A stretch of DNA of 22,537 nt from a virus: positions 1 to 22,537 of IMG/VR virus record IMGVR_UViG_3300042564_004864; one strand, 5' to 3'. Under the pieces are notes generated by a model. The model saw only the letters and a list, made by a program, of their open reading frames with translations, did no database searches and was not told the origin of the DNA. The translations under genes were made by a program, and so were the position numbers. This document shows, piece by piece, positions 2,670 to 22,537 of the stretch. How positions within the stretch are numbered: position 1 is the first letter of the stretch; each line of letters starts with the position of its first letter.

Positions 2670-3211
2670 GCTGCTTCCCGCATGGGGGCCGGGCGCAAGC
2701 TCGCCTTGAGATAAAGCGGGTGCTGAGGCTGCCCCTTGCCCGTAATCGCCAAAGCGTGCGGCTCTTTGCCAGACTGCCGAATGCGTCGCAGCACCATTGC
2801 GCCGCGCCCCCAGAGCAGCCCGTGATTTCCCCAACCGCAGACGACGAGATGCGCTTCATGGCAGATACGCTCGATCCAGGCGTCGTTCTCAAGTCCAACC
2901 GGATCGACAACGGTTTTCAGCCCCGCCGGGTCAGTGCTGCGATAGGCGAAGGCATTGCCGACGATATAGCCGCCATACCCCCAATCCCAGGCGTATCCAG
3001 CCATCCGACGAACACTTGGATCGCTGACGGTTTCAGTAGCCTTGCTCGGATTCAGGCATATCCACGCCATCACCGGACGCGTCTCATCCCAGACCCGCTT
3101 TAGGTAATAGCGGTACAGGCGGCATTCGCTGAAGACCGCCGTGTTTTGCATGTCGGAGATCGGCGGCAATGCGGACGGCGACGCGCCAAGATCAAGGCTG
3201 CGTTGGTTCAT
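2666..3211 (-). CDS. DUF1643 family protein
   Basis: A protein of about 181 aa that matches DUF1643: CRLYRYYLKRVW, MAWICLNPSKATETVSDPSV, RRMAGYAWDWGYGGYIVGN, AFAYRSTDP, VVCGWGNHG, and near the C-terminus GQPQHPLYL. The LNPS, WG and HPLY motifs are the family landmarks. The biochemical function of DUF1643 is not known to me. It is found in phages and mobile elements, often beside replication or nuclease genes, as here. Start is ATG 3211 (a TTG at 3217 is possible), giving a 20-bp overlap with the XRE gene upstream; the downstream VRR-NUC gene overlaps by 4 bp. The tight overlaps support a single leftward transcript. Confidence 0.8.
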   Translation of the reverse strand: MNQRSLDLGASPSALPPISDMQNTAVFSECRLYRYYLKRVWDETRPVMAWICLNPSKATETVSDPSVRRMAGYAWDWGYGGYIVGNAFAYRSTDPAGLKTVVDPVGLENDAWIERICHEAHLVVCGWGNHGLLWGRGAMVLRRIRQSGKEPHALAITGKGQPQHPLYLKASLRPAPMREAA

Positions 3212-3431
3212 TTTCAACCACGATTCTGAGATTGAGGGCCGCAGCCCAAAGAAAGAGATTCGATCCGTTCGGCAGGCTCGCGCCAGCTTCCCAGGCAGCG
3301 ATAGCCTGTCGCGTCACTCCTACCTTTGCCGCAATCTGCTCTTGCGTTTTGCCGGATGCAACGCGCGCTCGGGTCAGTCTCGCCAGAACGGCCATTTGCA
3401 TCCGGCCCGCGCCGGAGATGCGCCCGGCCAT
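3192..3431 (-). CDS. XRE-family HTH regulator
   Basis: A 79-aa protein that is almost entirely one helix-turn-helix domain: LARLTRARVASGKTQEQIAA, then KVGVTRQAIAAWEAG, then SNLFLWAAALNLRIVV. The pattern TQEQIAxKVGVTRQAIAxWE is classic Cro/C1-type HTH. It starts at ATG 3431, sharing one base with the TAA of the GapR-like gene (TAATG). It is the second HTH protein of this operon besides the Cro-like protein. It may modulate the operon or late switch, but no target can be read from the sequence. Confidence 0.8.
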   Translation of the reverse strand: MAGRISGAGRMQMAVLARLTRARVASGKTQEQIAAKVGVTRQAIAAWEAGASLPNGSNLFLWAAALNLRIVVENEPTQP

Positions 3432-3700
3432 TATTCGTCGTCCAGCGGCGGGCCGTCGGTCATCGAGAGCGCGCGCTTGTATAGCTCAAGCAGGGTTTCT
3501 TGCTCCTGCCGGTCGATTTCTTCCAGTTTCCGCAAACGAATAATCTGGCGCATGGTTTGCACTGAAAAACCATTGCCTTTTGCTTCCGCAAACACGTCCT
3601 TTATGTCGGCGGCGATACCCGCCTTCTCCGAATCCAATCGTTCGATTCGCTCGATATACGAACACAATTGGTCCGCCGCCACGCCACCAACGTCTGTCAT
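3431..3700 (-). CDS. GapR-like (DUF2312) DNA-binding protein
   Basis: An 89-aa protein with strong similarity to DUF2312/GapR: VAADQLCSYIERIERLDSEK, then IAADIKDVFAEAKGNGFSV, then IIRLRKLEEIDRQEQE. In Caulobacter, GapR is a nucleoid protein that binds overtwisted AT-rich DNA ahead of replication and transcription; that is family knowledge. A phage copy in a replication operon could support phage DNA topology or compete with host GapR (inference). Start set to ATG 3700 with a GGGAG ribosome site; the GTG at 3709 lies too close to that site. It is followed directly by the XRE gene (TAATG). Confidence 0.88.
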   Translation of the reverse strand: MTDVGGVAADQLCSYIERIERLDSEKAGIAADIKDVFAEAKGNGFSVQTMRQIIRLRKLEEIDRQEQETLLELYKRALSMTDGPPLDDE

Positions 3701-3778
3701 GACGCTCACTCCCGATAGACAAGAACTCAGCGCTCCGAGAAGCGAAGGCGTCTCGGCGTTATGCGATTCAAGGCGGCC

Positions 3779-4039
3779 TTATGCCGCTTTTGCGAGGTCG
3801 GGCTGAAGCTGGTGAAAGTCGCCGGGCGTCAATGCGCGATTGATTTTGCCCTCAGCCGCGAGCGTCTTGGAGATTTCGATGATCTGCTTTTGACGCCGCG
3901 CCGGGATCGTGCCGCGATTCAACCAGCCGCTTACCGACGATTGATCCACGCCCAACAACCGCGCAAGACGGTCTTGCGTCCAGAAAACATCGATCACCTG
4001 CTGCACGATGTCTTTTTCTTCTTGGGTCGGCTCTTTCAT
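3779..4039 (-). CDS. Cro-like / YdaS-type HTH protein
   Basis: An 86-aa protein whose first half is an HTH: VQQVIDVFWTQDRLARLLGV then DQSSVSGWLNRGTIPARRQ. The WxxQxxLARLLGVxxSxVSxWL pattern is that of the small Cro/YdaS-like antirepressors next to phage repressors. Start chosen at ATG 4039 behind a GGAA ribosome site; upstream in-frame ATGs at 4054 and further lie toward the promoter without a better site. It is the first gene of the leftward operon and is divergent from cI, the standard position for Cro. It would bind the shared operators and favour lytic growth (inference by position). Confidence 0.78.
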   Translation of the reverse strand: MKEPTQEEKDIVQQVIDVFWTQDRLARLLGVDQSSVSGWLNRGTIPARRQKQIIEISKTLAAEGKINRALTPGDFHQLQPDLAKAA

Positions 4040-4073
4040 GTTCGATTCCGGCATATGTTGTGGTCTCGAACCC

Positions 4074-4102
4074 ATCATATGAGATAGTCCAATCATACGC
4101 AA
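4074..4102 (-). promoter_or_regulatory. Leftward early promoter with operator-like spacer (Cro-like gene)
   Basis: On the minus strand there is TTGCGT (4097-4102), exactly 17 bp, then TATGAT (4074-4079). The -10 box is 35 bp upstream of the Cro-like ATG. The spacer contains the operator-like dyad; read on the plus strand it is ATGAGATAGTCCAAT at 4079-4093. A repressor bound there would cover the polymerase site. Seen directly; activity is inferred. Confidence 0.7.
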
Positions 4103-4159
4103 TGTGGTTTTCTCATTAAGTCTGGCGAATGCAATCTGTTAGAAATTCTTGGCGCGGCC

Positions 4160-4188
4160 TTGCTAAAGTTTATGACATGATCTAATAA
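4160..4188 (+). promoter_or_regulatory. cI promoter with operator in the spacer
   Basis: TTGCTA (4160-4165), 17-bp spacer, TAATAA (4183-4188). The operator-like sequence ATGACATGATCTAATAATC (4172-4190) straddles the spacer and -10 box. Transcription would begin near 4195, about 50 nt before the cI ATG. The position suggests autoregulation by CI. Confidence 0.72.
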
Positions 4189-4245
4189 TCTCTCGGCATC
4201 AAAAAGGCGTCTTTCTCATTGATACGGAAAAGAGAAGATAATTGC

Positions 4246-4884
4246 ATGAAGTCTGATAAATCTCAGACGATAGGGAACCGTATTAAAGAAGCCAGGAAGG
4301 CTATAAATCTTAGCCAAGACTCGCTTGCAAAGCTGGTTGGCGTCGATCAGTCCACGGTAGCACTTTGGGAGACTGACAAGACCAGCCCGCGAGAAGAGAC
4401 TCTATCTCAGCTTGCCCAAATTTTGTACCTGACGCCTGAGTTCCTGCGATATGGCCCGCCGCGCGAAGCGCCGTCGATGCCGCAGCGTACCGTTCCTGTT
4501 GTCGGTTTTGTGATTGCGGGGAACGAAATTAAACCGCTTGGGAGGCGGGTTATGCAGGAAACAGCGGCCCCGCCCGTCTTCGATAAAGATACGCCGGAGC
4601 CGACGGCGGCGCTTATCGTGCGCGGCGATTCCATGTGGCCGGTTTATCGAGATGGCGACATCTTGTTTTTCAGCGATCACGCAAAGCCGAACGACATGAT
4701 CGGCACGGAATGCGTTGTGAAGCTCGATGACGGAACGATGCTGGTCAAGCGCGTCATGTCGGGCAGCCGCCGGGGGCTTTACACCCTGGCGAGCTATAAT
4801 GCGCCGGAAATTCATGACGTGAGCATCGAATGGGCCGCGCCGGTCGTATGGGTGCGACGCAATTTGATTCGATCCAACGACTGA
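4246..4884 (+). CDS. CI-type phage repressor (HTH + S24 peptidase)
   Basis: A 212-aa repressor. Residues 8-65 form an XRE HTH (RIKEARKAINLSQDSLAKLV, GVDQSTVALWE). Residues about 85-205 are a LexA/S24 peptidase domain with the catalytic Ser129 in RGDSMWPVYRDGD and Lys168 in DGTMLVKRV. The likely self-cleavage site is Ala91-Gly92 in GFVIAGNE. It should maintain lysogeny and be inactivated by RecA-dependent self-cleavage after DNA damage (family knowledge). Start chosen at ATG 4246 behind AGAGAAG; the ORF extends upstream to 4219 without a good ribosome site. It is divergent from the Cro-like gene and followed by a terminator. The repeated operator-like sites in this window are its obvious candidate targets. 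Confidence 0.92.
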   Translation: MKSDKSQTIGNRIKEARKAINLSQDSLAKLVGVDQSTVALWETDKTSPREETLSQLAQILYLTPEFLRYGPPREAPSMPQRTVPVVGFVIAGNEIKPLGRRVMQETAAPPVFDKDTPEPTAALIVRGDSMWPVYRDGDILFFSDHAKPNDMIGTECVVKLDDGTMLVKRVMSGSRRGLYTLASYNAPEIHDVSIEWAAPVVWVRRNLIRSND

Positions 4885-4915: not shown

Positions 4916-4944
4916 TTGCCTAGATTTATGATATTATCTAATCT
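4916..4944 (+). promoter_or_regulatory. Recombination-operon promoter with operator in the spacer
   Basis: TTGCCT (4916-4921), 17 bp, TAATCT (4939-4944). The spacer carries ATGATATTATCTAATCTC (4928-4945), the same ATGA...ATCTAAT pattern and register as the cI and csf3 promoters. It lies about 48 bp upstream of the RecB-like nuclease ATG. Confidence 0.75.
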
Positions 4945-7027: not shown

Positions 7028-7414
7028 ATGCTCAATCTCGTTTCCAACACCGCCACGATTGCGGCGTCTTTCCTGGCGGCGCACAAAATGCCCACCGACG
7101 GCATCCCAGACCTGATGCGGACTATTCACGATGCGCTCAAATCTGCGGGTTCGCCGCCCGTCCCGGTTAATGTTGCGCCTATCCCAGCGGTCCCGATCAA
7201 GAAGTCTATCACTCCTGACTTCATCATCTGCCTGGAAGATGGCCTGCCGTTCAAGATGATGAAGGGGCACCTGCGGAAATCCTTCAACATGTCGCCGGAT
7301 GAATACCGCGCCAAATGGGGACTGCCGCGCGATTACCCCATGACGGCACCGAACCACACGGCCAAGCGCGCCTCTATCGCAAGGCAAATTGGTTTGGGCC
7401 ATAGGGTCCGTTAG
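7028..7414 (+). CDS. Ros/MucR family transcriptional regulator
   Basis: A 128-aa protein with the MucR/Ros signature: SITPDFIICLEDGLPFKMMK, then MSPDEYRAKWGLPRDYPMTAPNHTAKRASIARQIGLG. Ros/MucR proteins bind AT-rich promoters and silence genes in alphaproteobacteria. In classical Ros a Cys2His2 site holds zinc. Here the second Cys position is Asp (CLED) and the second His region reads HLRKSF, so zinc binding is doubtful, as reported for some Mesorhizobium homologues. The N-terminal 60 residues are variable. It follows recT by 49 bp and precedes a strong terminator, so it is the last gene of this transcript. Target genes are unknown. Confidence 0.88.
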   Translation: MLNLVSNTATIAASFLAAHKMPTDGIPDLMRTIHDALKSAGSPPVPVNVAPIPAVPIKKSITPDFIICLEDGLPFKMMKGHLRKSFNMSPDEYRAKWGLPRDYPMTAPNHTAKRASIARQIGLGHRVR

Positions 7415-7437: not shown

Positions 7438-7468
7438 GGGGGCTCGCTTAACGCAGCCCCCTTTTTTT
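7438..7468 (+). terminator. Strong rho-independent terminator
   Basis: GGGGGCT / AGCCCCC stem (7438-7444 with 7455-7461) followed by seven T. It closes the recombination transcript. Confidence 0.93.
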
Positions 7469-7490
7469 ATGTGCTTTTCTCATTTCCCCC

Positions 7491-7519
7491 TGGCGCACAC
7501 TATGAGTTTATGCAATATT
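7491..7519 (+). promoter_or_regulatory. Promoter of the Rad50-like operon
   Basis: TGGCGC (7491-7496), 17 bp, AATATT (7514-7519), with ATGAGTTTATGCAAT in the spacer and -10 region. The upstream stretch TGCTTTTCTCAT (from 7472) and CTGGCG recur before the small-gene operon at 12195 and, in part, near 4108, so this is a repeated control element. Confidence 0.6.
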
Positions 7520-12167: not shown

Positions 12168-12192
12168 GGGCCGTCATCGCGCGGCCCTTTTT
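12168..12192 (+). terminator. Rho-independent terminator
   Basis: GGGCCG / CGGCCC stem (12168-12173 with 12182-12187) followed by TTTTT. It ends the Rad50-like operon immediately before the next promoter. Confidence 0.88.
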
Positions 12193-12215
12193 AATTGCTT
12201 TTTCTCATCTCCCTC

Positions 12216-12244
12216 TTGCGGATTATGAGATTTGCGCATAAGCT
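12216..12244 (+). promoter_or_regulatory. Promoter of the small-gene operon
   Basis: TTGCGG (12216-12221), 17 bp, TAAGCT (12239-12244). The spacer carries ATGAGATTTGCGCA. The flank TGCTTTTTCTCATCTCCC (from 12196) is closely similar to that of the Rad50-operon promoter at 7472-7490. Confidence 0.62.
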
Positions 12245-13567: not shown

Positions 13568-13617
13568 TTCAGGTGTGCGCTATCAGCGCTAAGAATATGG
13601 TGTGATTTTGTAGGTGA

Positions 13618-13687
13618 GGCCCGCATGGGAGTTGAACCCATCCTTACGCGCTGAGAACGCGTCGTTCTTCCGATAAACTAGCGGGCC
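13618..13687 (-). tRNA. tRNA-Glu (anticodon CUC), phage-borne
   Basis: On the minus strand the 70 nt fold as a cloverleaf. The acceptor is GGCCCGC/GCGGGCC, 7 bp perfect. U8 and A9 are followed by a 4-bp D stem with a short loop containing GG. The anticodon stem is ACGCG/CGCGT, 5 bp, with loop TTCTCAG, which places CTC at 34-36 (plus-strand 13653-13655). The T stem is ATGGG/CCCAT with loop TTCAACT. CCA is not encoded. The D loop is short (7 nt) and the discriminator base reads T, unusual for tRNA-Glu, so identity in vivo is less sure than the fold. Neighbours are phage genes on both sides. Confidence 0.8.
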
Positions 13688-13897
13688 ATAATCATTTCGT
13701 CAAGATTGATATTTGATTGGGATTTGCTTTGCAAATCCTATATTTTCAATTCAAATCAATATTTTAGTTTTTGGGGTTATTAGAGTGAGAGAACCCTATC
13801 TCGATTTTCCTCACCCTGCATCCGACCGCGAAACTCATAATTTAGAAGCCATTGTCTCGCAACGACTTTTGGCAAAATCTCATACTTTCAACCAGCT

Positions 13898-13926
13898 TTA
13901 TTAGACTATCTCATTATTCGCTTGCA
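13898..13926 (-). promoter_or_regulatory. Candidate leftward promoter/operator toward the tRNA
   Basis: On the minus strand TGCAAG (13921-13926), 17 bp, TAATAA (13898-13903), with ATGAGATAGTCTAATAAAG across the -10 box. The first 15 bases form a near dyad, ATnAGA-nnn-TCTnAT. The operator match is excellent; the -35 box is poor. Confidence 0.45.
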
Positions 13927-13950
13927 TGATATTTTATAATATGAGATTAT
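13922..13950 (+). promoter_or_regulatory. Promoter of the integrase-side operon
   Basis: TTGCAT (13922-13927), 17 bp, GATTAT (13945-13950). Its -35 box overlaps that of the leftward candidate. The dyad ATGATATTTTATAATATGA lies in the spacer. It could drive the 14015 gene and the integrase. Confidence 0.55.
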
Positions 13951-14014
13951 TGAAATCGCTCATACAAATCAATGTGATGCTCTTAATGGGTATCTGATTG
14001 GCATAGGAGAAGGC

Positions 14015-14320
14015 ATGACGATGACTTTGCAGCCAAAGCTCGCGACGCCACCGGCCCCGGCGGTCGTGGATAAAAAAGCCGCTGAGGCGTTTGTGGACGC
14101 GCTTATCGGCTGGGAAACTTTAGGCGTGGCAGGCGACGAAGAAATCACCCGCCCCAAAGCACCCGAGGCGCGGGCGCATCTGTCCGCTGTTCTCGGCGAG
14201 CACATGCCCGCATACGCCAATCACGCTAGGCCGGGCAGCCTAAAGGCCGCTTTGCTTGGGGCTTATCTTCGCAGCGTGGCCGAGGTGCTGGACCCGCCGA
14301 AGGTCGAAACTACCGCGTAA
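14015..14320 (+). CDS. Phage protein of unknown function (101 aa)
   Basis: Start at ATG 14015 with AGGAGAAGG just before it. The product begins MTMTLQPKLATPPAPAVVDK and is a small helical protein after a Pro-rich N-terminus, with a possible amphipathic helix (AEAFVDALIGWETLGV). It lacks a clear HTH, so calling it an excisionase is not supported, although its position before the integrase would suit a directionality factor. Gap to the integrase is 60 bp. Confidence 0.68.
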   Translation: MTMTLQPKLATPPAPAVVDKKAAEAFVDALIGWETLGVAGDEEITRPKAPEARAHLSAVLGEHMPAYANHARPGSLKAALLGAYLRSVAEVLDPPKVETTA

Positions 14321-14380
14321 CCAGTCCGCCTACACAAACCCCGCGCCGCAGAATGTGGCCGGTAGATCAGAAGGATCATC

Positions 14381-15652
14381 ATGGCTCGCCTCACCCGCGA
14401 CAGCCGCCTGGAAACCCGAAAGGGCCGGGAACGGCTTCCTATCTCGAAGAAACCCGTCTGGCACACCCTGGAGCATGGCCGCTCCATAGGCTACCGCAAG
14501 ACCGCCACCGGCGGCGCATGGATCGCCCGCATGTACCTCGGCGATAAGAAGCACGAAGAGCGGCGCATCGGGGCTGCCGACGACACGCTAGACGCCGACG
14601 GTGTGCATGTCTTTTCCTGGCAGCAGGCGCAGGTGACGGCACGGGAATGGTTCGAGGCGCGGGCGCACGAGATAGCCGGGCGCGGCAAGGCCGATCTGAC
14701 TGTCAAGGAAGCCACCTCTGACTATATGGCGTGGTTCCGAACGCAGCGGAAATCCATCGACCAGTTCGAGCACACGATCAATGCCCATATCCTGCCTGAG
14801 TTCGGCAGCGCCCTGGTGCGCGAGTTGACCAGCAGGCAAATCAGGGCTTGGCTGAACCGGGTAGCGGCCAGTGGTCGGAGGCTGAGGACCAAGCCGGGCC
14901 AGCCCCAGAAATTCATGGCCCCGCCGCAGACCAAGGACCAAATCCGCGCGCGGCGCTCGACCGCCAATCGCGTGCTTACGGTGCTGAAAGCGATCCTGAA
15001 TCACGCGGCCAAAGAGAACGAAGCCATCAATACCGCCGCCTGGGACCGCGTGGATCCTTTCGAAGGCGTGGACGCGGCGCGCGTGCGGTTCCTCGACCAT
15101 GCAGAAGCCAAGCGGCTTGTGAACGCTTGCGATCCAGAATTTCGTCCCATGCTCATCGCGGCCCTGCATACCGGCGCGCGCTATGGTGAGCTTTGCCGGG
15201 TTACGGTCGGCGATTACCAGAATGGCAGGCTCTTCTTCGGTGATACCAAGGACGGCAAATCGCGGTGGATTTCTCTGACGAGCGAGGGGCGCACGTTCTT
15301 CGACGGCGTGACGGCGGGACGGCACAAGCGAGAGCCGATCTTCCGGCGCAATGACGGCGACCCGTGGGGCAATAACCACCAAAGCCGCCGCGTTGATGCT
15401 GCCTGCGCCAACGGTAAGATTGAGCCGATCTGCACCTTCCATCAGTTGCGGCACACCTACGCAAGCTTGGCCCTGATGAACGGCATGCCAATGATGGTGC
15501 TATCGGCCAATCTAGGGCACTCTGACACTCGTATGGTAGAGAAGCATTACGGACACTTATTACAGTCCTACAAAGATCAAATGGTAGAAGACCATGCTCC
15601 TAAATTTGGTTTTGATGACTCGCATATTGTAAAAATTCTAGCCAATTCCTAA
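14381..15652 (+). CDS. int: Tyrosine-family phage integrase
   Basis: A 423-aa tyrosine recombinase. The N-terminal arm-binding part (1-100) contains GYRKTATGGAWIARMYLG. The core-binding SAM-like domain spans about 105-225. The catalytic domain carries Arg267 (HTGARYGEL), a Lys at 290 or 293 (GDTKDGKSRW), His354 and Arg357 (HQLRHTY), His380 (ANLGHSD) and Tyr390 (VEKHYGHL), so the full active set is present. It integrates and excises the phage at an attachment site. Start is ATG 14381 with AAGGA eight bases upstream. A long open frame on the opposite strand here is a codon-bias shadow. Confidence 0.95.
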   Translation: MARLTRDSRLETRKGRERLPISKKPVWHTLEHGRSIGYRKTATGGAWIARMYLGDKKHEERRIGAADDTLDADGVHVFSWQQAQVTAREWFEARAHEIAGRGKADLTVKEATSDYMAWFRTQRKSIDQFEHTINAHILPEFGSALVRELTSRQIRAWLNRVAASGRRLRTKPGQPQKFMAPPQTKDQIRARRSTANRVLTVLKAILNHAAKENEAINTAAWDRVDPFEGVDAARVRFLDHAEAKRLVNACDPEFRPMLIAALHTGARYGELCRVTVGDYQNGRLFFGDTKDGKSRWISLTSEGRTFFDGVTAGRHKREPIFRRNDGDPWGNNHQSRRVDAACANGKIEPICTFHQLRHTYASLALMNGMPMMVLSANLGHSDTRMVEKHYGHLLQSYKDQMVEDHAPKFGFDDSHIVKILANS

Positions 15653-15686
15653 ATTCGGATAATTGAAGCGTCTTCGAGGGGTTATC

Positions 15687-16370
15687 TTGAGTGCAGAATA
15701 CAGCGCGAGAAATAAATCTTACGCCAACCGCTTTGCTTACTGTCTAATCCCGTATGTGAACGACTCTGGAGACGCTGATGTTGTCTGGAACAGTAGAGAC
15801 GGCGGCATTGCCAGCGCATTGAGGGGAACGTCTGGGCGTGTCGTCTACCCAATGCTTGCCGCCACCATCGTTCAAGCGCGTTATTACGTTCCGCCGATTG
15901 GGTCTGTGATCCTAGTCGATCCTGATTTTGATCAGATCGTTTTGAGAATGCGCGAACTGATCGACGCATCGTGGGAGGATCGGGTCAACCCTGGGATGCG
16001 CCATCACCTTTTCTCCAGGCTTGGACGCGAAGGATCGGCAAGGTTCATGGCCCAGGCTCGGGTTGAGAATGAGGAAGGGCATCCTATTGTTGTCGATGAG
16101 GCCCTTCACGAGCATTTCAGCCAGCGGGCGCGGAACCGGGTCGTAGGTCGGTCAAATCTGCCGTCCGAAGTCTTGACGGACTCATGCACGCCCGAGGTTT
16201 CGCGAAACCCGCGCGAAATCACATTGAACTGGTGGCGCATGGGAAAGTTGCGGTCGCGCCGAGTGCCGCTCATTGGGCCGTGGGCGTCGGCAGTGGGGCC
16301 GGTTGCGGCTTGGTTGTCCGCTGCCGGTAATAGCTTAGCTGGCTCGCCGCTTCTTTCATCCATCGGGTAA
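15687..16370 (+). CDS. Unknown protein next to the integrase, 3' end overlaps Rz1
   Basis: About 227 aa if it starts at TTG 15687, which has GAGGGG five bases upstream; a TTG at 15663 would add eight residues and lacks a site. The product begins MSAEYSARNKSYANRFAYCL and contains VVYPMLAATIVQARYYVPPI and QIVLRMRELIDASWEDRVNP. I do not recognise a family. The last ~34 residues are read from DNA that also encodes the C-terminus of the convergent Rz1-like lipoprotein, and they are of simple Ala/Gly/Ser/Leu composition. The original C-terminus may have been lost where the lysis/tail cassette joins the integrase region. The body of the gene is less GC-rich than its neighbours. Confidence 0.55.
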   Translation: MSAEYSARNKSYANRFAYCLIPYVNDSGDADVVWNSRDGGIASALRGTSGRVVYPMLAATIVQARYYVPPIGSVILVDPDFDQIVLRMRELIDASWEDRVNPGMRHHLFSRLGREGSARFMAQARVENEEGHPIVVDEALHEHFSQRARNRVVGRSNLPSEVLTDSCTPEVSRNPREITLNWWRMGKLRSRRVPLIGPWASAVGPVAAWLSAAGNSLAGSPLLSSIG

Positions 16371-16629
16371 TGTCGGCCAACCCCAGCGACAACGCCTCAT
16401 AGTCTTGAGGCGTGAGCGCGATCATGCTGCCGCCGGGCGTCGAGATGACTTTCCAGCGCACCTGCGGCAGCGATACCGGGTCAGGCGGAGGCGGTGCCGC
16501 AAGCTCAATTTGCGGGAGCGGTTTTTCCTGGCTGACCGTCACCACCGTTTCCCGAAATGGATTCGAGCAGGCGGCGAGTGTGATCGGAAGCAGCATTAAT
16601 GCGGCTTTCCAAAAGACCGGGCTTTTCAT
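16270..16629 (-). CDS. Rz1-like outer-membrane spanin lipoprotein
   Basis: A 119-aa product starting at ATG 16629 in an alternative frame inside the end of the Rz gene, the classical Rz/Rz1 nested layout. It begins MKSPVFWKAALMLLPITLAAC, a lipoprotein signal with lipobox LAAC and Cys21 as the modified residue. The mature part is Pro-rich (AAPPPPDPVSLPQ), as in o-spanins. Together with Rz it would fuse the inner and outer membranes at the last step of lysis. The 125-bp overlap with Rz and the lipobox are seen directly. Its 3' end overlaps the convergent unknown gene by 101 bp. It is longer than lambda Rz1, as often seen for proteobacterial phages. Confidence 0.8.
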   Translation of the reverse strand: MKSPVFWKAALMLLPITLAACSNPFRETVVTVSQEKPLPQIELAAPPPPDPVSLPQVRWKVISTPGGSMIALTPQDYEALSLGLADITRWMKEAASQLSYYRQRTTKPQPAPLPTPTAQ

Positions 16630-17047
16630 CGGCGATTTTCCCCAGGTTGTGCTTGGCGAAGAGGGTTGTGAGGCGCTTACTTTCGGCACGGGCGGCTCTG
16701 GCATCCGCCTGAAGCGCTTCCAGGCGGCGGTTATTGTCGCCAACCTCCTGCGAGACGCGCTGCAATTCGGCGATGATGCTTTCGGCCCGCTGGCGCTCGA
16801 CCTGCAAGGCAAGCTCTAGCCTTGCTTGTTCGGCTGCGGCCTGTTCGGCGCGCTGCTGCATATTCTCGACGTAGCGGTAGCCGAGATAGATGGTCAGGCA
16901 TAGGCCGAGGGCCGCAAGCCCGATGAGCGCCCATTTGCCCCAGCCCTTGAGCAGCGGGGCTAGAAGTGAGCCCCCGCCGGTCGCTACTGCTGCCGCGCCG
17001 CCGAGAAGAAGATCGGTAGAGGGCAGCCAGGATAGCATGGCGTCCAT
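16505..17047 (-). CDS. Rz-like inner-membrane spanin
   Basis: A 180-aa protein with one transmembrane helix at about 35-58 (WALIGLAALGLCLTIYLGYR) followed by a long periplasmic coiled coil (AEQAAAEQARLELALQVERQ and onward to about 145). This is the i-spanin pattern. It starts at ATG 17047, sharing a base with the endolysin stop (TAATG); an in-frame ATG nine bases later is also possible. The Rz1-like gene is nested at its 3' end. Confidence 0.83.
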   Translation of the reverse strand: MDAMLSWLPSTDLLLGGAAAVATGGGSLLAPLLKGWGKWALIGLAALGLCLTIYLGYRYVENMQQRAEQAAAEQARLELALQVERQRAESIIAELQRVSQEVGDNNRRLEALQADARAARAESKRLTTLFAKHNLGKIADEKPGLLESRINAASDHTRRLLESISGNGGDGQPGKTAPAN

Positions 17048-17448
17048 TATGGATAAGCCGAACGAGGAAGCTCGAAATGCGGGCCGTCATAGAACGATTC
17101 GTCCGCAGAGGAACCATTGCTGTTCCAATCGCCGCCCCAGCGCAGCTTGACGCCTAGGCGTTCCGCGATTGCAAACATTTGGTCGCGCAGTCGGCGGAAG
17201 CTGGCCTTGTCCTTCCAATCGATCTGGCCGCCCTTCAATGGAGCAAGATCGACGGCATGGCCGCTCAGATGACGGCTCTGCATCGTCTTGCTTTTCCCCT
17301 CGGCGACAAGCTGCTTTTGCCGGTCGTAGGTACGCAATCCTTCGATAACCATGAAGGGCGCATCGCTTTCATCGCCCAAGGCCATGACGACGCGCACCAG
17401 ATCGGGATGCACGCCCTGGAGTCTCTGTTTGTCTCGTGCGGTAAGCAT
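17047..17448 (-). CDS. Endolysin, M15-family peptidase
   Basis: A 133-aa enzyme of the M15 (VanY/L-Ala-D-Glu peptidase) group. It shows FMVIEGLRTYDRQKQLV, then SRHLSGHAVDLAP with His60 and Asp67 as zinc-ligand candidates, then DGPHFELP with His124. It cleaves peptide links of peptidoglycan to lyse the host. No signal peptide is seen, so a holin is needed; none is clearly visible next to it, though the Rz N-terminus has an extra hydrophobic stretch. Start is ATG 17448 with GAGGA. The spanin genes follow immediately. Confidence 0.9.
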   Translation of the reverse strand: MLTARDKQRLQGVHPDLVRVVMALGDESDAPFMVIEGLRTYDRQKQLVAEGKSKTMQSRHLSGHAVDLAPLKGGQIDWKDKASFRRLRDQMFAIAERLGVKLRWGGDWNSNGSSADESFYDGPHFELPRSAYP

Positions 17449-17486
17449 GTGAAATCCTCATATTGAGGACTGCACCGTATCACCTT

Positions 17487-18065
17487 CTATGAGTTTTGCC
17501 AATCGGTCGCAGAGCGTCGCTCGCAAGCGAAGCATCGTCCGCAAGGTCCGGTTGTTATTGGCTCTCGGCAGGACCACGTTTCGCACCACAACTCTTCGCC
17601 GATTTCCCCGCGTATGGCGCGTTTGTCCAGATGGCGCGGCTCATAGTGCCAGTTTACGGGCCGCTCGATCCAGGCAGGGGAATTTCGAGCGGTGAGCATT
17701 GCGACTTGCGCGCCCATTGCATCTCGCTCGCTCACGTCTCCATCCTCGATCACGGTGCCACCCCAGACATCGGTGATTTCAGGCCGACCAGCGATAACCC
17801 CGCCCATGATGCCGCCGAGCAGCACCCAATCCGCCGCGACGCAGGACAGAGGCACAGTCAGGCCGCATGTCATGCGCTCTATAGGCCGGATGCGTTCTAG
17901 CTGGTCACAGATGCTCTGAAAGGCCCGCATCTCGAATGGCGCTCGTCCGCCCGCGTCCAGAATCTTGACGTGCAGAGCGATGACGGGTGCATCGGTGGTG
18001 AGCAGCACATGCCGCAGGCACCAAGCGCTATCCGGCCCGCCGCTGACCATGACCATATGCGTCAT
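17487..18065 (-). CDS. QueC-like PP-loop ATPase
   Basis: A 192-aa protein. The PP-loop SGGPDS is at residues 8-13 (MTHMVMVSGGPDSAWCLRHV), and a Cys cluster at the C-terminus reads SCREPITTGPCGRCFACERR (Cys166, 175, 178, 181), the zinc site of QueC-type 7-cyano-7-deazaguanine synthases. QueC makes preQ0, which some phages insert in DNA to resist host nucleases. No queD, queE, folE or transglycosylase gene is in the window, so a full pathway is not shown; a different PP-loop reaction is possible. Start is ATG 18065, coupled (ATGA) to the adhesin gene. It is shorter than bacterial QueC (about 220-230 aa). It sits between tail and lysis genes. PP-loop CysH-like proteins are linked with type IV-B CRISPR loci, but this one has QueC features and another transcript. 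Confidence 0.72.
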   Translation of the reverse strand: MTHMVMVSGGPDSAWCLRHVLLTTDAPVIALHVKILDAGGRAPFEMRAFQSICDQLERIRPIERMTCGLTVPLSCVAADWVLLGGIMGGVIAGRPEITDVWGGTVIEDGDVSERDAMGAQVAMLTARNSPAWIERPVNWHYEPRHLDKRAIRGEIGEELWCETWSCREPITTGPCGRCFACERRSATDWQNS

Positions 18066-18853
18066 GCAACGCCCCCAAGCAGCGTTCCGGGTACGGACCA
18101 TGTGACAAACGAATTGCCGAGGATGTACTTGCCCGCCGCGCCGCCGGTGCTGGTGACTGCGTTGTTTCCCGCTGCACCAAGCGCCCCGCCGATGCCGCCG
18201 TCATTTCGGCTTGATCCGCCCTTGCCGCCCGGCAGTGTCGCTGTTCCCGTTCCCCCTGCGGTCCCGTTCGTGTTTGTGTAGCCGCCTGACGTTGTGCCAC
18301 CGGAACCCGGCGCACCGCCGACCGAGCCCTGCCCCCCGCCACCGCCGCCACCGCCATAGTTGAAACCGCGATACCAAGTTGTGTCAGCGCCGCCGCCGGT
18401 CTGGTCCTCATGTTTGCCGCTGCCGCCACCGCCCCCGCCACCGCCCCCGGCGATAGTGCCGTTATTGATGACGGTCAGAGGAACCGTAGCGCGCAGGGCT
18501 GGGCCGCCGGGCAAACCCGCGCCGCCCGCAGTAGAAGCCCCGGCCTGATAGCCACCCGTCGCAGTGCCGCCATTGCCGCCCTTGCCGCCCGCCCCAAGAA
18601 TGCTGCCGTTGTTTATTAGGGTCAGCACAGACCCGGCTGGAAACGTGCCGGTGTCCATCGCCGGATTAGCGGTGCTCGTGCTGCCTACGATAGCGGCGAC
18701 ATCGACAATCACGGTCATATTGACGGGCGAAACGCCGTCCCACCCGGCTCCTACCGCCGCCGTCTGCATGTTGAAGTTGGTCGTGCTGGCTGCGATGGTG
18801 ATGACCAATCCCACCGCGCCCTGAGAGAAGAAACCGACCGGCGCGGGCCACAT
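18062..18853 (-). CDS. Glycine-rich tail tip/adhesin protein
   Basis: A 263-aa protein. The N-terminal 80 residues are beta-rich (VGLVITIAASTTNFNMQTAA, then SVLTLINNGSILGAG). Beyond about residue 85 there are repeated Gly runs separated by short variable segments, including runs of eight or nine Gly around 138-175. This resembles the polyglycine-sandwich receptor-binding tips of phage fibres (for example gp38-type adhesins), where loops between Gly helices set host range. The start overlaps the stop of the tail-fibre gene (TAATG). The repeats are a natural substrate for recombination and slippage. Confidence 0.78.
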   Translation of the reverse strand: MWPAPVGFFSQGAVGLVITIAASTTNFNMQTAAVGAGWDGVSPVNMTVIVDVAAIVGSTSTANPAMDTGTFPAGSVLTLINNGSILGAGGKGGNGGTATGGYQAGASTAGGAGLPGGPALRATVPLTVINNGTIAGGGGGGGGGSGKHEDQTGGGADTTWYRGFNYGGGGGGGGQGSVGGAPGSGGTTSGGYTNTNGTAGGTGTATLPGGKGGSSRNDGGIGGALGAAGNNAVTSTGGAAGKYILGNSFVTWSVPGTLLGGVA

Positions 18854-19740
18854 TACGCAAAGCCCTTCGAGATGCTGCCCATCATTTTTGTCCCGGTGCA
18901 GTAGAAGGTCAGCAGGTCAACGGCATTCGCGGTCGTGCTGAGAATCGGATCGGCCCCGCCGGGGAAAAGGTAATCAGTCGAGAAGGACAGCGTGCGCGAG
19001 CCCGTGGCGTCCTGGGTCACACGCAAAAGATAGGTCGCCCCCGCGCGCATGTTCGTCGGCGTCGCCAGCGCGCGGTTCCCGCCGAGCGTTACGCGGGCGC
19101 ATTGCGCGGTGTCCAAATCCCAATTGATCGTCGCGGCATCGGTCAAGGCGGCTTCGGCGAAATACTGCGCCCGCGTGTGGCTTGATACAGCCCCGAGCCG
19201 TGGATAGGTAGCCGCGCCCGCTGCTGCCGTGAGTGCTTTGGCGGTATCGGTCCCTGCCTGCGCTTCCGCATTGCTGGTAAGCTGGACCACGCCCGGCGCG
19301 CTGGAGGTGGCCGAAGGGATGAAGCGCATGACTTCGCGCCAGTCCGTGCCGGATCGTTGGAGCAACAGACACGCGCTCAAGCTGCTCATCGCATAGTCGG
19401 CACCATAGGCAAGCCAGATTTGCCCAGCCCCGCCCGCGAGATGCCTGACGGTGATGATGCGCCCGGCGCTGACGGGGCGCAGCAAAAGCCACCGGCCATC
19501 AGCAAGGTTAGACGTGGCGATATTCGACAAGTCATCGCTGGCCGCCGCACCCTCGGTATCGACATCATGCGCTCCGCGCGTCGGGGTGATGCTGCCGCCG
19601 GAGATGACGAACGACGTTCCGGTCTGAGACCCGGTTGCTTCGGCGATGAACTGATAAAGCTGGAGGACTGCCGCGACCCAGGGGCCTGCCGGTTCTCTGG
19701 CGACATAAGTTATCGCCGCTTCTGTCGGCAAATCGGTCAT
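18853..19740 (-). CDS. Tail fibre protein
   Basis: A 295-aa protein carrying the tail-fibre repeat SAPGVVQLTSNAEAQAGTDT in its middle, typical of phage fibre proteins. The C-terminal half is beta-rich (ARVTLGGNRALATPTNMRAG, YLLRVTQDATGSRTLSFSTD), a pattern seen in the shaft or tip of fibres. It would bind the host surface together with the Gly-rich adhesin. It starts at ATG 19740 and overlaps a tiny upstream frame by ATGA. Being short, it may be only the distal part of a longer fibre encoded further right. Its start lies about 90 bp from the csf promoter, which fires the opposite way. Confidence 0.8.
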   Translation of the reverse strand: MTDLPTEAAITYVAREPAGPWVAAVLQLYQFIAEATGSQTGTSFVISGGSITPTRGAHDVDTEGAAASDDLSNIATSNLADGRWLLLRPVSAGRIITVRHLAGGAGQIWLAYGADYAMSSLSACLLLQRSGTDWREVMRFIPSATSSAPGVVQLTSNAEAQAGTDTAKALTAAAGAATYPRLGAVSSHTRAQYFAEAALTDAATINWDLDTAQCARVTLGGNRALATPTNMRAGATYLLRVTQDATGSRTLSFSTDYLFPGGADPILSTTANAVDLLTFYCTGTKMMGSISKGFA

Positions 19741-19823
19741 TTGGCTGACTCTTTTTTGTTTTCCCTATGATGCCACAGCACGCCTTCGGATTCACCCTTA
19801 AAAATCGTATGCGTTTTTATCAT
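19737..19823 (-). CDS. Possible 28-aa leader peptide before the tail fibre
   Basis: ATG 19823 behind GAAAG opens a 28-codon frame (MIKTHTIFKGESEGVLWHHR, then ENKKESAK) whose TGA overlaps the tail-fibre ATG as ATGA. The product is basic with no fold recognised. It could serve for translational coupling. The frame stays open further upstream, but that part runs across the csf promoter. Evidence is only the coupling and a modest ribosome site. Confidence 0.35.
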   Translation of the reverse strand: MIKTHTIFKGESEGVLWHHRENKKESAK

Positions 19824-19830
19824 TCTTTCG

Positions 19831-19859
19831 TTGCGTCTCGTGATGAGTTGATCTAATAA
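19831..19859 (+). promoter_or_regulatory. csf operon promoter with phage-type operator
   Basis: TTGCGT (19831-19836), 17-bp spacer, TAATAA (19854-19859). ATGAGTTGATCTAATAATC (19843-19861) overlies the spacer and -10 box; it differs from the cI promoter copy (4172-4190) at two of 19 positions and has the same register. Transcription would start near 19866, giving a 40-nt leader before the csf3 ATG. Confidence 0.75.
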
Positions 19860-19905
19860 TCCATCACCAAACACAAACCCCTCCCACAAACCCGCAGGCG
19901 ATAAA

Positions 19906-20598
19906 ATGACACCTTTTCTGGTGAAAATGGACCTGTGCGCGCCGGTTATCCTTGGGCGTCGGCTCACGCTTGACGCGCTTCTGGCGTCGCAGATTTACGA
20001 GCGCACCGGCTGCGTTGAAACCGCACACGAGACGATTCCGCTGGAGCGTATCGGCGAGATTTGGACCGGCTCACAGGCTTTCGTTGACGGCTATGTGCCG
20101 TCGCGGATGGTCACGATCATCGCTTCCCTTCGCGCCGATCACGATCTAACGCCAGATATCATTTGTCCGAGCGGACGGCGGAAGATGTATCCCTCAGTCG
20201 AAGTAAAGCGGGGAGATTATAAAAATAGCCTGTCGATCTATCGAACGCATGAAGCGCCGTGCGTTTGGTTCTCGGGTCGTGGCGATGTTGATGCGGTGAC
20301 GGAACTGTTGAACGGCGTCTCTGGCATCGGCACTAAGCGTTCGCATGGTTATGGGCAGGTCGTGCGGGTCCATGTCCGCGCCGTGTCTGGCGAGAACCAA
20401 TATGCGGGCCTCAAGCTCGCCGATGGCAGCCCGGCCCGCCCGATCCCTGCTGCGTTCTGGCAGGATATTTCCAGCAAGCGCGCGTTGATCTCTGCCGAGC
20501 GGTTCAAACCGCCCTATTGGGATGGGAAGAGCGTTCTCTGCGCCGTGCCGAACCCGCCGCCGGAAGAAATCACCCAGCAGCTTTTCTTCAGCCGATAG
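19906..20598 (+). CDS. csf3: Csf3-like (Cas5-group) type IV CRISPR protein
   Basis: A 230-aa RAMP protein. The N-terminal beta strand and the LTLDALLASQIYERTG motif (20-35) match the Csf3/Cas5 group. The glycine-rich loop GVSGIGTKRSHGYGQV (137-152) is the RAMP signature. A Trp/Pro-rich C-terminus follows. Csf3 caps the 5' handle of the crRNA in type IV complexes (family knowledge). Start is ATG 19906; the ribosome site AGGCG is weak. It is the first gene of the operon, whereas in described type IV-A loci csf3 usually follows csf2. A large frame on the opposite strand (20194-21318) is a shadow. Family call is good; subtype cannot be fixed. Confidence 0.82.
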   Translation: MTPFLVKMDLCAPVILGRRLTLDALLASQIYERTGCVETAHETIPLERIGEIWTGSQAFVDGYVPSRMVTIIASLRADHDLTPDIICPSGRRKMYPSVEVKRGDYKNSLSIYRTHEAPCVWFSGRGDVDAVTELLNGVSGIGTKRSHGYGQVVRVHVRAVSGENQYAGLKLADGSPARPIPAAFWQDISSKRALISAERFKPPYWDGKSVLCAVPNPPPEEITQQLFFSR

Positions 20599-20610
20599 GA
20601 GCCTGCCGTG

Positions 20611-21267
20611 ATGACACCTCTTGAATTTTGGTATCGCGGCATTGGGCAATATTTGCATCCCGCCGTCGAGCAGGGCGTTGATCCGGCGATTGTCGCGCTG
20701 TCGCGCAATCATCGTCACAGCCAATCGGGTTCTTTGATCCGCCTCGGCGGTGGAAAGGCTATGTCGCTGGTCTGTGAAGACCGCGCGATTCTCATGGCCG
20801 ACATAACGCCATGCACTCAGCCGCCTGGGAACGTCGAGATTAAAGACGGAAGCTGGCGCTCGATCCCCAACTGGATTGCTGAAATTATCCGCAACCCACC
20901 GCCGCCGCCATTCCTTGTCGTTATCCACGGGAACGCCTGGGATACAATCCATAATTGGCGCATCAACCAATCGACCGATTTCATTTCGCTGTCGGGTGTT
21001 TGGACTGAAACCGTCAACCGCGCAGTCGTGTCCAAGGCGTTCGCCGATCTGGAAGGCATCCCGAATGCCGTATGGCGGTCGGCCTGCAACCTTCTCGAAA
21101 AGCGCAAGCGTGACCCGAGCCAAGCGAAGCAGATTGACGCCATGCTTGACGCAGTGATCGCCAAAACACCGGCTCTGGACGCGATTATCGACACGCTGCC
21201 GCCGACCAGTTCCGACGACTTTGAAATCATCTCCCTGCTGTGCGGGGACCGCGAAAAGAATGGATAA
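20611..21267 (+). CDS. Unrecognised csf-operon gene; candidate Csf1/Cas8-like subunit
   Basis: A 218-aa protein between csf3 and cas6. By size (Csf1 is about 200-250 aa) and place it is the best candidate for the type IV large subunit, but the four-Cys zinc finger of typical Csf1 is absent: only Cys55, 68, 159 and 211 are present and they are scattered. It has NPPPPPFLVVIHGNAWDTIH (95-114), then RINQSTDFISLSGVWTE, suggesting a beta-rich core, and a helical C-terminal third (KAFADLEGIPNAVWRSACNL onward). Start is ATG 20611 (GTG at 20608 possible) with AGGAG. The stop overlaps the alternative cas6 start. If it is not Csf1, it is a new component. Function is inference from context. Confidence 0.6.
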   Translation: MTPLEFWYRGIGQYLHPAVEQGVDPAIVALSRNHRHSQSGSLIRLGGGKAMSLVCEDRAILMADITPCTQPPGNVEIKDGSWRSIPNWIAEIIRNPPPPPFLVVIHGNAWDTIHNWRINQSTDFISLSGVWTETVNRAVVSKAFADLEGIPNAVWRSACNLLEKRKRDPSQAKQIDAMLDAVIAKTPALDAIIDTLPPTSSDDFEIISLLCGDREKNG

Positions 21268-21271
21268 AGCC

Positions 21272-21823
21272 ATGACTGTTCTCGAATTGCCGGTCGCGCT
21301 AAGCGGTCTGCCCAACAATCGGTATGAATTGCACCAGACCGCCTACGAACTGATGCTGGAAGACCCGGATGATCGGCGGGATTTCATCTTCTGTGCCGAC
21401 AAGCTCTTGCCGGGCGTTTTGATCCGGTCTGCGACGATGCCGGAGAAACTGAGGCAGCATTGCGTTCCCACGCTCATGCCGGAGAACGGCAAGACGTACC
21501 GTTTCATCCTTGAAGCGCACCCGACATACAGCCCGGTCAAAGGCGTGCGGGCGTGCTATCCGGCCCGCGATGAAGTGTCCCGCTTGCGCTGGCTCGCACA
21601 GCGCGCCGAAACGCGCGGCTTTGAAGTGCTCTCCTCTGGTGTAGAGACCGAATACAACTGGGTCGCCAAGCCTGGGATCATCGGCAAGATGCTCGATCAC
21701 AGCACTTTCTCTGGCTCCCTCACCGTTACCGATGAAACCGCCATGCGGGAAGCAATGGTTCGCGGAATCGGCCACTGCAAGACGTTCGGACTCGGCGTCA
21801 TGCGCTTGTTTAACCCCAGCTAA
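21272..21823 (+). CDS. cas6e: Cas6e-like crRNA-processing endonuclease
   Basis: A 183-aa protein matching the Cas6e/Cse3 pattern. NNRYELHQTAYELM (15-28) places Tyr18 and His21 with the Y-x-x-H spacing of the catalytic Tyr23/His26 of Thermus Cas6e. Further matches are RDFIFCADKLLPGVLIRS, then TYRFILEAHPTY, then SGSLTVTD, and the glycine-rich loop GIGHCKTFGLGVMRLF (165-180). It should cut CRISPR transcripts at the 3' side of a hairpin in the repeat. Some type IV-A loci use a Cas6e-type enzyme (also named Csf5). The presence of a complete active site implies a CRISPR array somewhere, outside this window. Start chosen at 21272; ATG 21260, overlapping the previous gene by 8 bp, is the alternative. 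Confidence 0.85.
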   Translation: MTVLELPVALSGLPNNRYELHQTAYELMLEDPDDRRDFIFCADKLLPGVLIRSATMPEKLRQHCVPTLMPENGKTYRFILEAHPTYSPVKGVRACYPARDEVSRLRWLAQRAETRGFEVLSSGVETEYNWVAKPGIIGKMLDHSTFSGSLTVTDETAMREAMVRGIGHCKTFGLGVMRLFNPS

Positions 21824-21840
21824 TCGCCCCGCATCTGGGG
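21814..21840 (+). promoter_or_regulatory. Hairpin between cas6e and csf2
   Basis: CCCCAG (21814-21819) can pair with CTGGGG (21835-21840) around the cas6e stop codon; a competing small stem CCCC/GGGG uses 21827-21830 with 21837-21840. No T run follows, so it is not a normal terminator. It could tune csf2 translation, or be a Cas6e-bound RNA hairpin. Function is speculative. Confidence 0.3.
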
Positions 21841-21867
21841 ATGATGATATTCATTTGGAGACCCGAC

Positions 21868-22537
21868 ATGACGAAGACCTACACCGTTGTTCTCAACGGC
21901 ACGATCACCGCTGAAACCCCGCTGGCGACCGCGCCGCATCGGCCCGAGAGCGAAAAGCGCGCCGACTTCGGGGTTAAGAACCCGCCCTCCCGTCTGCCGC
22001 GCATGACGGTCGGTGGCGTTGAGACCGTTTATTTCCCTGGCTCCGGTCTGCGCGGCAAGCTGCGCCGGATGGCAATGCAGCGGGTGCGCGAAGCGCTGCA
22101 AGAGGACGGCAAGCCGATTTTCACGCTGGATGACCATTTCTTCAACGTCATCGGCGGGATCAAGGATAAGGGCAGCGATAGCAAGGCCGATATTGTCGCC
22201 GCTGCCGATCTGCGTAACCGCAATCCGATCATCAGCCTGTTCGGCTCGATGGCGGCCCATATCGGTGGGCGCTTGATGATCGGCCATGCTGTCCCCGTTC
22301 ATCCGACCTCCCCGATTGTCTTGACCGGCGTTCGCACCGATGATTTCGAGCGCCAGCCCGATAACCTGCGGTTTCTCTCCGAGGAAGAGCGCGAAAAGTG
22401 GCAGGCCATGTCCGAGCAGGGTGCGGAAAACAGCAAGGCGAAGACCGAGCTAAAGAACGTCGAAACCGACCTTCGCAAGCTGTCCAAGGCCAAGGGCGAA
22501 ATCGACGCCGATAAGGTCGATGAACTGTCCAAGCGCC
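21868..22537 (+). CDS. csf2: Csf2-like (Cas7-group) backbone protein, 3' partial
   Basis: Starts at ATG 21868 behind TTTGGAG and stays open to the end of the window (223 codons seen; Csf2 is usually about 300-350 aa). The N-terminal beta strand KTYTVVLNGTITAETPLATA and the RAMP segment VYFPGSGLRGKLRRMAMQRV (54-73) are the Cas7/Csf2 signature. ISLFGSMAAHIGGRLMIGHA is the following core. Copies of this protein would form the crRNA-binding filament. Residues about 160-223 are a charged helical stretch (EEEREKWQAMSEQGAENSKA onward), probably a helical insertion. The rest lies off the right edge. Confidence 0.85.
   Translation, partial: MTKTYTVVLNGTITAETPLATAPHRPESEKRADFGVKNPPSRLPRMTVGGVETVYFPGSGLRGKLRRMAMQRVREALQEDGKPIFTLDDHFFNVIGGIKDKGSDSKADIVAAADLRNRNPIISLFGSMAAHIGGRLMIGHAVPVHPTSPIVLTGVRTDDFERQPDNLRFLSEEEREKWQAMSEQGAENSKAKTELKNVETDLRKLSKAKGEIDADKVDELSKR

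Follow-up and report, generated by a model that had tools for sequence, protein, structure and literature searches.

Expression of the type IV csf CRISPR operon carried by this virus appears to follow the viral life cycle, being turned on and off with it. The window analyzed here corresponds to the entire 22.5-kb virus record (22,537 nucleotides) and encodes an immunity region, recB-like and RecT genes, an SMC-like protein, an integrase, as well as lysis and tail genes, with the csf genes at its right end. Control of csf by the phage's own CI/Cro-type regulator, as proposed in an earlier note on this DNA, is supported at the level of the sites: beyond the 17-of-19 match between the csf3 and cI operators, a motif learned with the csf region held out was recovered there, together with a second csf operator; the matrix transferred to the csf3 and dinG promoters of a diverged phage, the sites of each phage matching its own dialect; and such sites were absent from a phage (L147) with recB, recT and smc relatives in which no cI was detected. 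This part of the proposal stands, whereas we infer which protein binds and that it represses. We consider it likely that csf belongs to the immunity regulon of the phage, being repressed in the lysogen by CI (perhaps also by the Cro-like protein) and released upon infection or SOS induction, with binding, binder, sign and timing deduced from sequence.

The type IV csf operon and its CRISPR array

The csf genes identified in the window are the following:

19906-20598, plus strand: csf3 (Cas5-type, type IV; PADLOC Csf3_0_IV, 1.8e-38)
20608-21267, plus strand: Cas8/Csf1-like large subunit (PADLOC typeIV_Cas8, weak, 0.006; 64% to the diverged relative G001)
21260-21823, plus strand: cas6 (Cas6e-like; Pfam PF08798, 2.4e-18)
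21868-22537, plus strand: csf2 (Cas7-type; PADLOC Csf2_0_IV, 3.9e-34), cut by the contig end

Contig L122 shares positions 13990-22537 with the window, without any difference, and continues for a further 1.1 kb, in which csf2 is completed (full protein: PADLOC Csf2_0_IV, 1.7e-56) and a CRISPR array of 10 units of about 66 bp is entered. Type IV Csf2 and Csf3 proteins together with this array in L122 identify the locus as a type IV CRISPR-Cas system. Phage genes and csf are therefore seen joined in two records, although L122, having the same sequence, is not counted here as a further lineage. The window and L122 both end too early to show a dinG gene, which was read in G001 only. In the array (L122:9035-9691), 37-bp repeats alternate with spacers of about 29 bp; the first three repeats are identical and the others increasingly degenerate. 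Comparison of the spacers with phage and plasmid records revealed no credible target. Alignments of csf3 and csf2 against viral contigs retrieved L122 and G001 as the only relatives, and matches to the pattern ATGANNTKATCTAATNNTC were present in at least 119 stretches of viral DNA, including the contig of L112/L122. A gene for a QueC-like ATPase (17487-18101, minus strand) is located near the operon, between the endolysin and tail genes.

The csf3 promoter and its likeness to the cI promoter

The csf3 promoter reads TTGCGT-CTCGTGATGAGTTGATC-TAATAA, with a 17-bp spacer and ATGAGTTGATCTAATAATC at 19843-19861, and the cI promoter reads TTGCTA-AAGTTTATGACATGATC-TAATAA, with ATGACATGATCTAATAATC at 4172-4190. 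Direct reading of the sequence confirmed the likeness of the two described in the earlier note, operator included: 17 of the 19 operator positions are identical and lie at an equal offset from the -35 hexamer. The recB-like promoter was found to share the pattern as well (TTGCCT-17-TAATCT from 4916, TTATGATATTATCTAATCT at 4926-4944), again as had been claimed. When the cI 19-mer was compared with the whole window on both strands, it matched itself at 19 positions and the csf site at 17, followed by a best remaining match of 14. The pattern TTGC-N19-TAAT, for which 0.33 occurrences are expected, is present in the window only at 4160 (cI), 4916 (recB-like) and 19831 (csf3).

The csf element proved to be larger than previously described, since a second operator (GTATGCGTTTTTATCATTC, 19807-19825) is found just upstream of the -35 hexamer. 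The symmetric unit at the promoter is a 19-bp palindrome at 19841-19859, starting 2 bases before the 19843-19861 stretch first reported. The two operators start 34 bp apart, on either side of the -35 hexamer:

19807-19825: csf operator 1, GTATGCGTTTTTATCATTC, upstream of the -35 hexamer (rank 16 of 22,519 window positions, csf-free matrix)
19831-19836, plus strand: -35 hexamer TTGCGT, with the spacing of the cI and recB-like promoters and kept upstream of csf3 in G001
19841-19859: csf operator 2, TGATGAGTTGATCTAATAA, over the promoter spacer and -10 hexamer (rank 8 of 22,519, csf-free matrix; 17 of 19 positions identical to the cI operator)
19854-19859, plus strand: -10 hexamer TAATAA, read from the sequence

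A LexA box (GTTC-N7-GTTC) was sought throughout the window and none was found, so that it is also absent at the csf promoter.

An operator motif learned outside the csf region

Intergenic DNA of the window, with the csf region left out, was searched for a palindrome by expectation-maximization, using intergenic base composition as background. This returned TTATGAGAT-N-ATCTCATAA with a log-likelihood of 78, as compared to 42 +/- 7.5 (maximum 67) in 40 dinucleotide shuffles; with a whole-window background, the procedure returned AT-rich noise. The held-out csf region contains 2 of the 16 best sites of the window (ranks 8 and 16 of 22,519). Shuffled csf upstream DNA reached the better of the two csf scores in 0.11% of the cases and never, in 20,000 shuffles, the two together. 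The csf promoter had been proposed to be a member of the operator set, and it does carry the motif learned from the other promoters alone. With 13.1 and 10.3 bits, the csf sites are mid-ranked, below the recB-like and 12.2-kb sites. The other operators of the window, as located in matrix scans (those in the last entry being possible ones), are:

4077-4095: operator over the cro promoter, ATATGAGATAGTCCAATCA
4100-4118: operator in the cro-cI intergenic region, CAATGTGGTTTTCTCATTA
4170-4188: operator over the cI promoter, TTATGACATGATCTAATAA
4926-4944: operator over the recB-like promoter, TTATGATATTATCTAATCT
7467-7518: operator pair before the SMC-like gene (7467-7485 and 7500-7518)
12192-12241: operator pair before the 12.3-kb genes (12192-12210 and 12223-12241)
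13867-13965: operator cluster before the 14.0-kb ORF and the integrase gene (13867, 13898, 13924 and 13947)
17445-17505: possible operators before the endolysin gene, minus strand (17445 and 17487; 11.2 and 8.5 bits with the csf-free matrix, 12.7 and 13.7 in a second scan)

Operators are often paired, at distances of about two or three helical turns, and the pairs before the SMC-like gene (33 bp apart) and at the 12.2-kb promoter (31 bp apart) resemble that of csf. A gene for tRNA-Glu (CTC anticodon; 13616-13687, minus strand) adjoins a 330-bp noncoding stretch that contains at least 4 operator sites and precedes the integrase gene.

The palindrome might instead be a general feature of AT-rich promoters, read by the host RNA polymerase or by nucleoid proteins of the GapR or MucR kind, with csf merely possessing a strong promoter. 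The intergenic regions are indeed AT-rich, the 17-of-19 match includes the -10 hexamer, and the phage encodes a GapR homologue (3431-3709) as well as a protein that we take to be MucR/Ros-like (7028-7414), both of which are conserved in G001. However, the motif is symmetric over 19 bp and was found against intergenic background composition, its sites are frequently arranged in the pairs described above, it transfers to G001 with the same dyad spacing but in a phage-specific dialect, and it is absent from the scanned part of the L147 phage. We regard such an origin as highly improbable.

Conservation in a diverged phage

G001 is a 114.8-kb record that probably represents a complete circular genome, because it has a 127-bp terminal direct repeat (L141:1-127 and L144:8675-8801). 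The identity between the window and G001 is 70% for CI, 46% for Cro, 62% for RecT, 81% for the integrase, 57% for Csf3 and 64% for Cas8. Its CRISPR system is of type IV-A, since it contains dinG (csf4; Csf4_0_IVA, 2e-140). This gene (71494-73707) appears to be transcribed separately, as a unit preceded by operator sites of its own. A short degenerate array is located at about 76,250-76,640, between cas6 and csf2 and not after csf2.

In G001, the matrix trained on the window, csf excluded, identified 23 sites of at least 9 bits; second-order Markov simulations gave 2.5 on average, and column-permuted matrices 2.2 (maximum 12 of 200). Some 25 operator copies are dispersed over G001, nearly all of them intergenic: with a joint matrix, 24 of the 25 sites of at least 15 bits were outside long ORFs, which cover 75% of the genome. 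An unconstrained expectation-maximization search of the G001 "noncoding" set was swamped by codon-periodic CAT repeats, corresponding to coding DNA within that set. In both phages, sites precede cro/cI, the SMC-like gene and the orf14-integrase region; the G001 sites at 84058-84107 are near the orthologue of the 14.0-kb ORF/integrase region of the window. A G001 matrix trained without csf and dinG placed the csf3 promoter sites at 78632 and 78667, which are 35 bp apart, at ranks 22 and 8 of 114,602, and the dinG site at 73758, which has a weaker neighbor, at rank 18 of 114,602.

The operator dialects of the two phages differ, namely, TTATGAGAT-N-ATCTCATAA in the window phage and a form like TAATGGAAA-N-TTTCCATTA in G001. 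All 4 csf sites score higher with the matrix of their own phage than with that of the other: 18.8 versus 10.5 and 13.1 versus 6.9 for the window, and 18.0 versus 10.8 and 22.0 versus 17.1 for G001. In the alignment of the csf3 upstream regions, parts of both operators and TTGCGT are kept, whereas neighboring bases drift. Because the csf sites fit their own dialect despite divergence, and because operators are kept in drifting surroundings, continued selection by each phage's own regulator is suggested, rather than a relic. This bears on the possibility that the csf cassette was acquired along with a copy of a phage promoter, whose sites would then have no regulatory effect. Such a duplication would account for the 17-of-19 identity to the cI operator in the window, but the likeness between the csf and cI upstream regions does not extend beyond the operator and promoter elements, and the G001 csf sites have diverged and yet follow the G001 dialect, so that this explanation is very doubtful. 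Conservation rests on 2 phage lineages that have both CI and csf, L122 being identical to the window where the two overlap.

Controls in other phages and plasmids

No site of at least 14 bits was detected in the 16.8 kb scanned of the L147 phage, which has recB-, RecT- and SMC-like relatives, and no cI was detected in its 34.5-kb record. The csf regions of Paracoccus and Pseudomonas plasmids contained no site of at least 12 bits. That of a Halomonas plasmid contained three scattered sites above 13 bits, and single mid-score matches are for this reason not diagnostic alone. A comparable set of sites was sought in 78 loci with distant Cro homologues and found in none but G001 itself; the upstream regions of these homologues gave only weak matrix matches. 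In many of these loci (L201, L210, L215 and others), the matched stretch is preceded, at a distance of about 60 bp, by a weak CAAATCGGTATTCCCATAA-type element, which is a lead on the DNA bound by this type of HTH protein. According to the earlier note, equally good matrix matches scattered randomly through the host genome would speak against the proposal; in the control sequences, which are non-host records, no such scatter was seen.

Candidate regulators and proposed mechanism

The immunity region of the window and the DNA beside it encode the following candidates:

3192-3431, minus strand: second HTH_3 protein, an alternative regulator (Pfam, 2e-13; 38% homologue in G001)
3779-4054, minus strand: Cro/YdaS-like HTH protein, divergent from cI (Pfam P22_Cro, 3e-7; YdaS, 5e-7)
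4246-4884, plus strand: CI-like repressor (Pfam HTH_3, 4.9e-13; Peptidase_S24, 9.1e-10)

An immunity repressor of the dimeric HTH type would be expected to have a symmetric 19-bp site that lies over the cI/cro promoters and is dispersed over promoters of lytic type. Among the possible binders CI is favored, because its recognition-helix region (HTH VDQSTVALWE) is identical in the window and G001, because the P22 C2 repressor is its closest relative of known structure, and because CI has apparent autocleavage residues. Ala91-Gly92, Ser129 and Lys168 are invariant in the alignment with G001 CI and, assigned by eye, look like the Ala-Gly site and the Ser/Lys dyad of self-cleaving S24 repressors; possessing these as well as HTH and S24 peptidase domains, the window protein is classed as an S24-type repressor, with cleavage predicted from the sequence. 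A search of genome contigs with CI gave distant HTH matches only, and thus no host or prophage relative was found. The Cro-like or the second HTH_3 protein, encoded beside CI, could also be the binder.

In the proposed mechanism, the 19-bp palindrome would be bound by a dimeric HTH repressor of the phage, in all likelihood the S24-type CI, with the Cro-like protein perhaps binding as well, at operators dispersed over the cro/cI, recB-recT, SMC, orf14-integrase and csf promoters. At the csf promoter, the spacer and the -10 hexamer would be occupied by one dimer, and the site for another is some 34 bp farther upstream, at a distance of roughly three helical turns. The bound repressor would shut the csf promoter, keeping the CRISPR system off or low in the lysogen; the system would be turned on when the phage enters a repressor-free cell, or when DNA damage causes cleavage of the repressor, along with the recombination and replication genes. 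Because the cI promoter has the same site in the same register, it is possible that csf repression is partial or Cro-dependent, not full.

The opposite sign would apply if the sites were bound mainly by the Cro/YdaS-like protein, or by the HTH_3 protein at 3192-3431: csf would then be shut in lytic growth and open in the lysogen, where it would confer lysogen immunity. The Cro-like protein adjoins operators and is conserved in G001 (46%, with a common DQSxxSGW helix), and the operator register at the csf promoter is that at the cI promoter. Furthermore, the prophage defense gene tha of 80alpha is expressed from the cI promoter and is active in the lysogen but largely silent during lytic growth (PMC11087260). 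However, sites are also present on the recB-like, SMC-like and other presumed lytic promoters, which a Cro-only regulon would shut as well, and only weak matrix matches precede distant Cro homologues. We consider a Cro-type regulon of this kind unlikely and favor repression by CI in the lysogen.

Relation to known systems

Plasmid type IV-A CRISPR systems employ a dinG helicase and have no Cas nuclease. The phage systems share csf2, csf3, cas6 and the array with them, as well as dinG in G001, but are located on a phage genome, differ in gene order (csf3-cas8-cas6-csf2-array in the window phage) and carry phage operators at their promoters, which the Paracoccus and Pseudomonas plasmid csf loci lack. 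A single repressor acting on many operators across the genome is a feature shared with P1 C1 and mycobacteriophages L5/L1. The dispersed operators of P1 C1 and L5 are asymmetric. So are those of the mycobacteriophage L1 repressor, as has been reported (PMC1934351). The operators identified here are palindromic, and one target is a CRISPR operon.

Type IV systems are known in some prophages (PMC11656645). The nearest precedent found is that of the type I-F3 CAST transposons, in which coopted Xre-family regulators (RtaC/RtbC) and zygotic induction serve guided transposition (PMC11406308). There, too, an Xre-family regulator of a mobile element governs its CRISPR module, with a burst of activity on entering a new cell; yet CAST are transposons that use type I-F3 for guided transposition under a dedicated regulator, and not an immunity repressor with dispersed operators. 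Like Tha of 80alpha, csf is a phage-borne defense system tied to the lysis-lysogeny switch, but the reverse of the Tha pattern is predicted for it. The earlier note knew of no CRISPR locus described as so regulated, and the literature searched, largely without subscription papers, likewise contained no report of a phage-borne CRISPR system under phage-repressor control, or of a CRISPR operon included in the regulon of a phage immunity repressor.

A type IV-A CRISPR system, composed of the csf operon and a separate dinG, may be wired into the lytic regulon of a temperate phage lineage, where it would act as a zygotically and SOS-induced weapon of the infecting or induced phage against competitors or host genes and not as lysogen immunity, a proposal for which we consider the chances to be even. 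The work yields an operator sequence that can be tested directly, a pair of diverged phage lineages and the prediction that csf transcripts would rise upon loss or cleavage of CI. A tie between a CRISPR system and the life-cycle switch of a phage is relevant to the question of when type IV CRISPR carried by phages acts, and who benefits from it.
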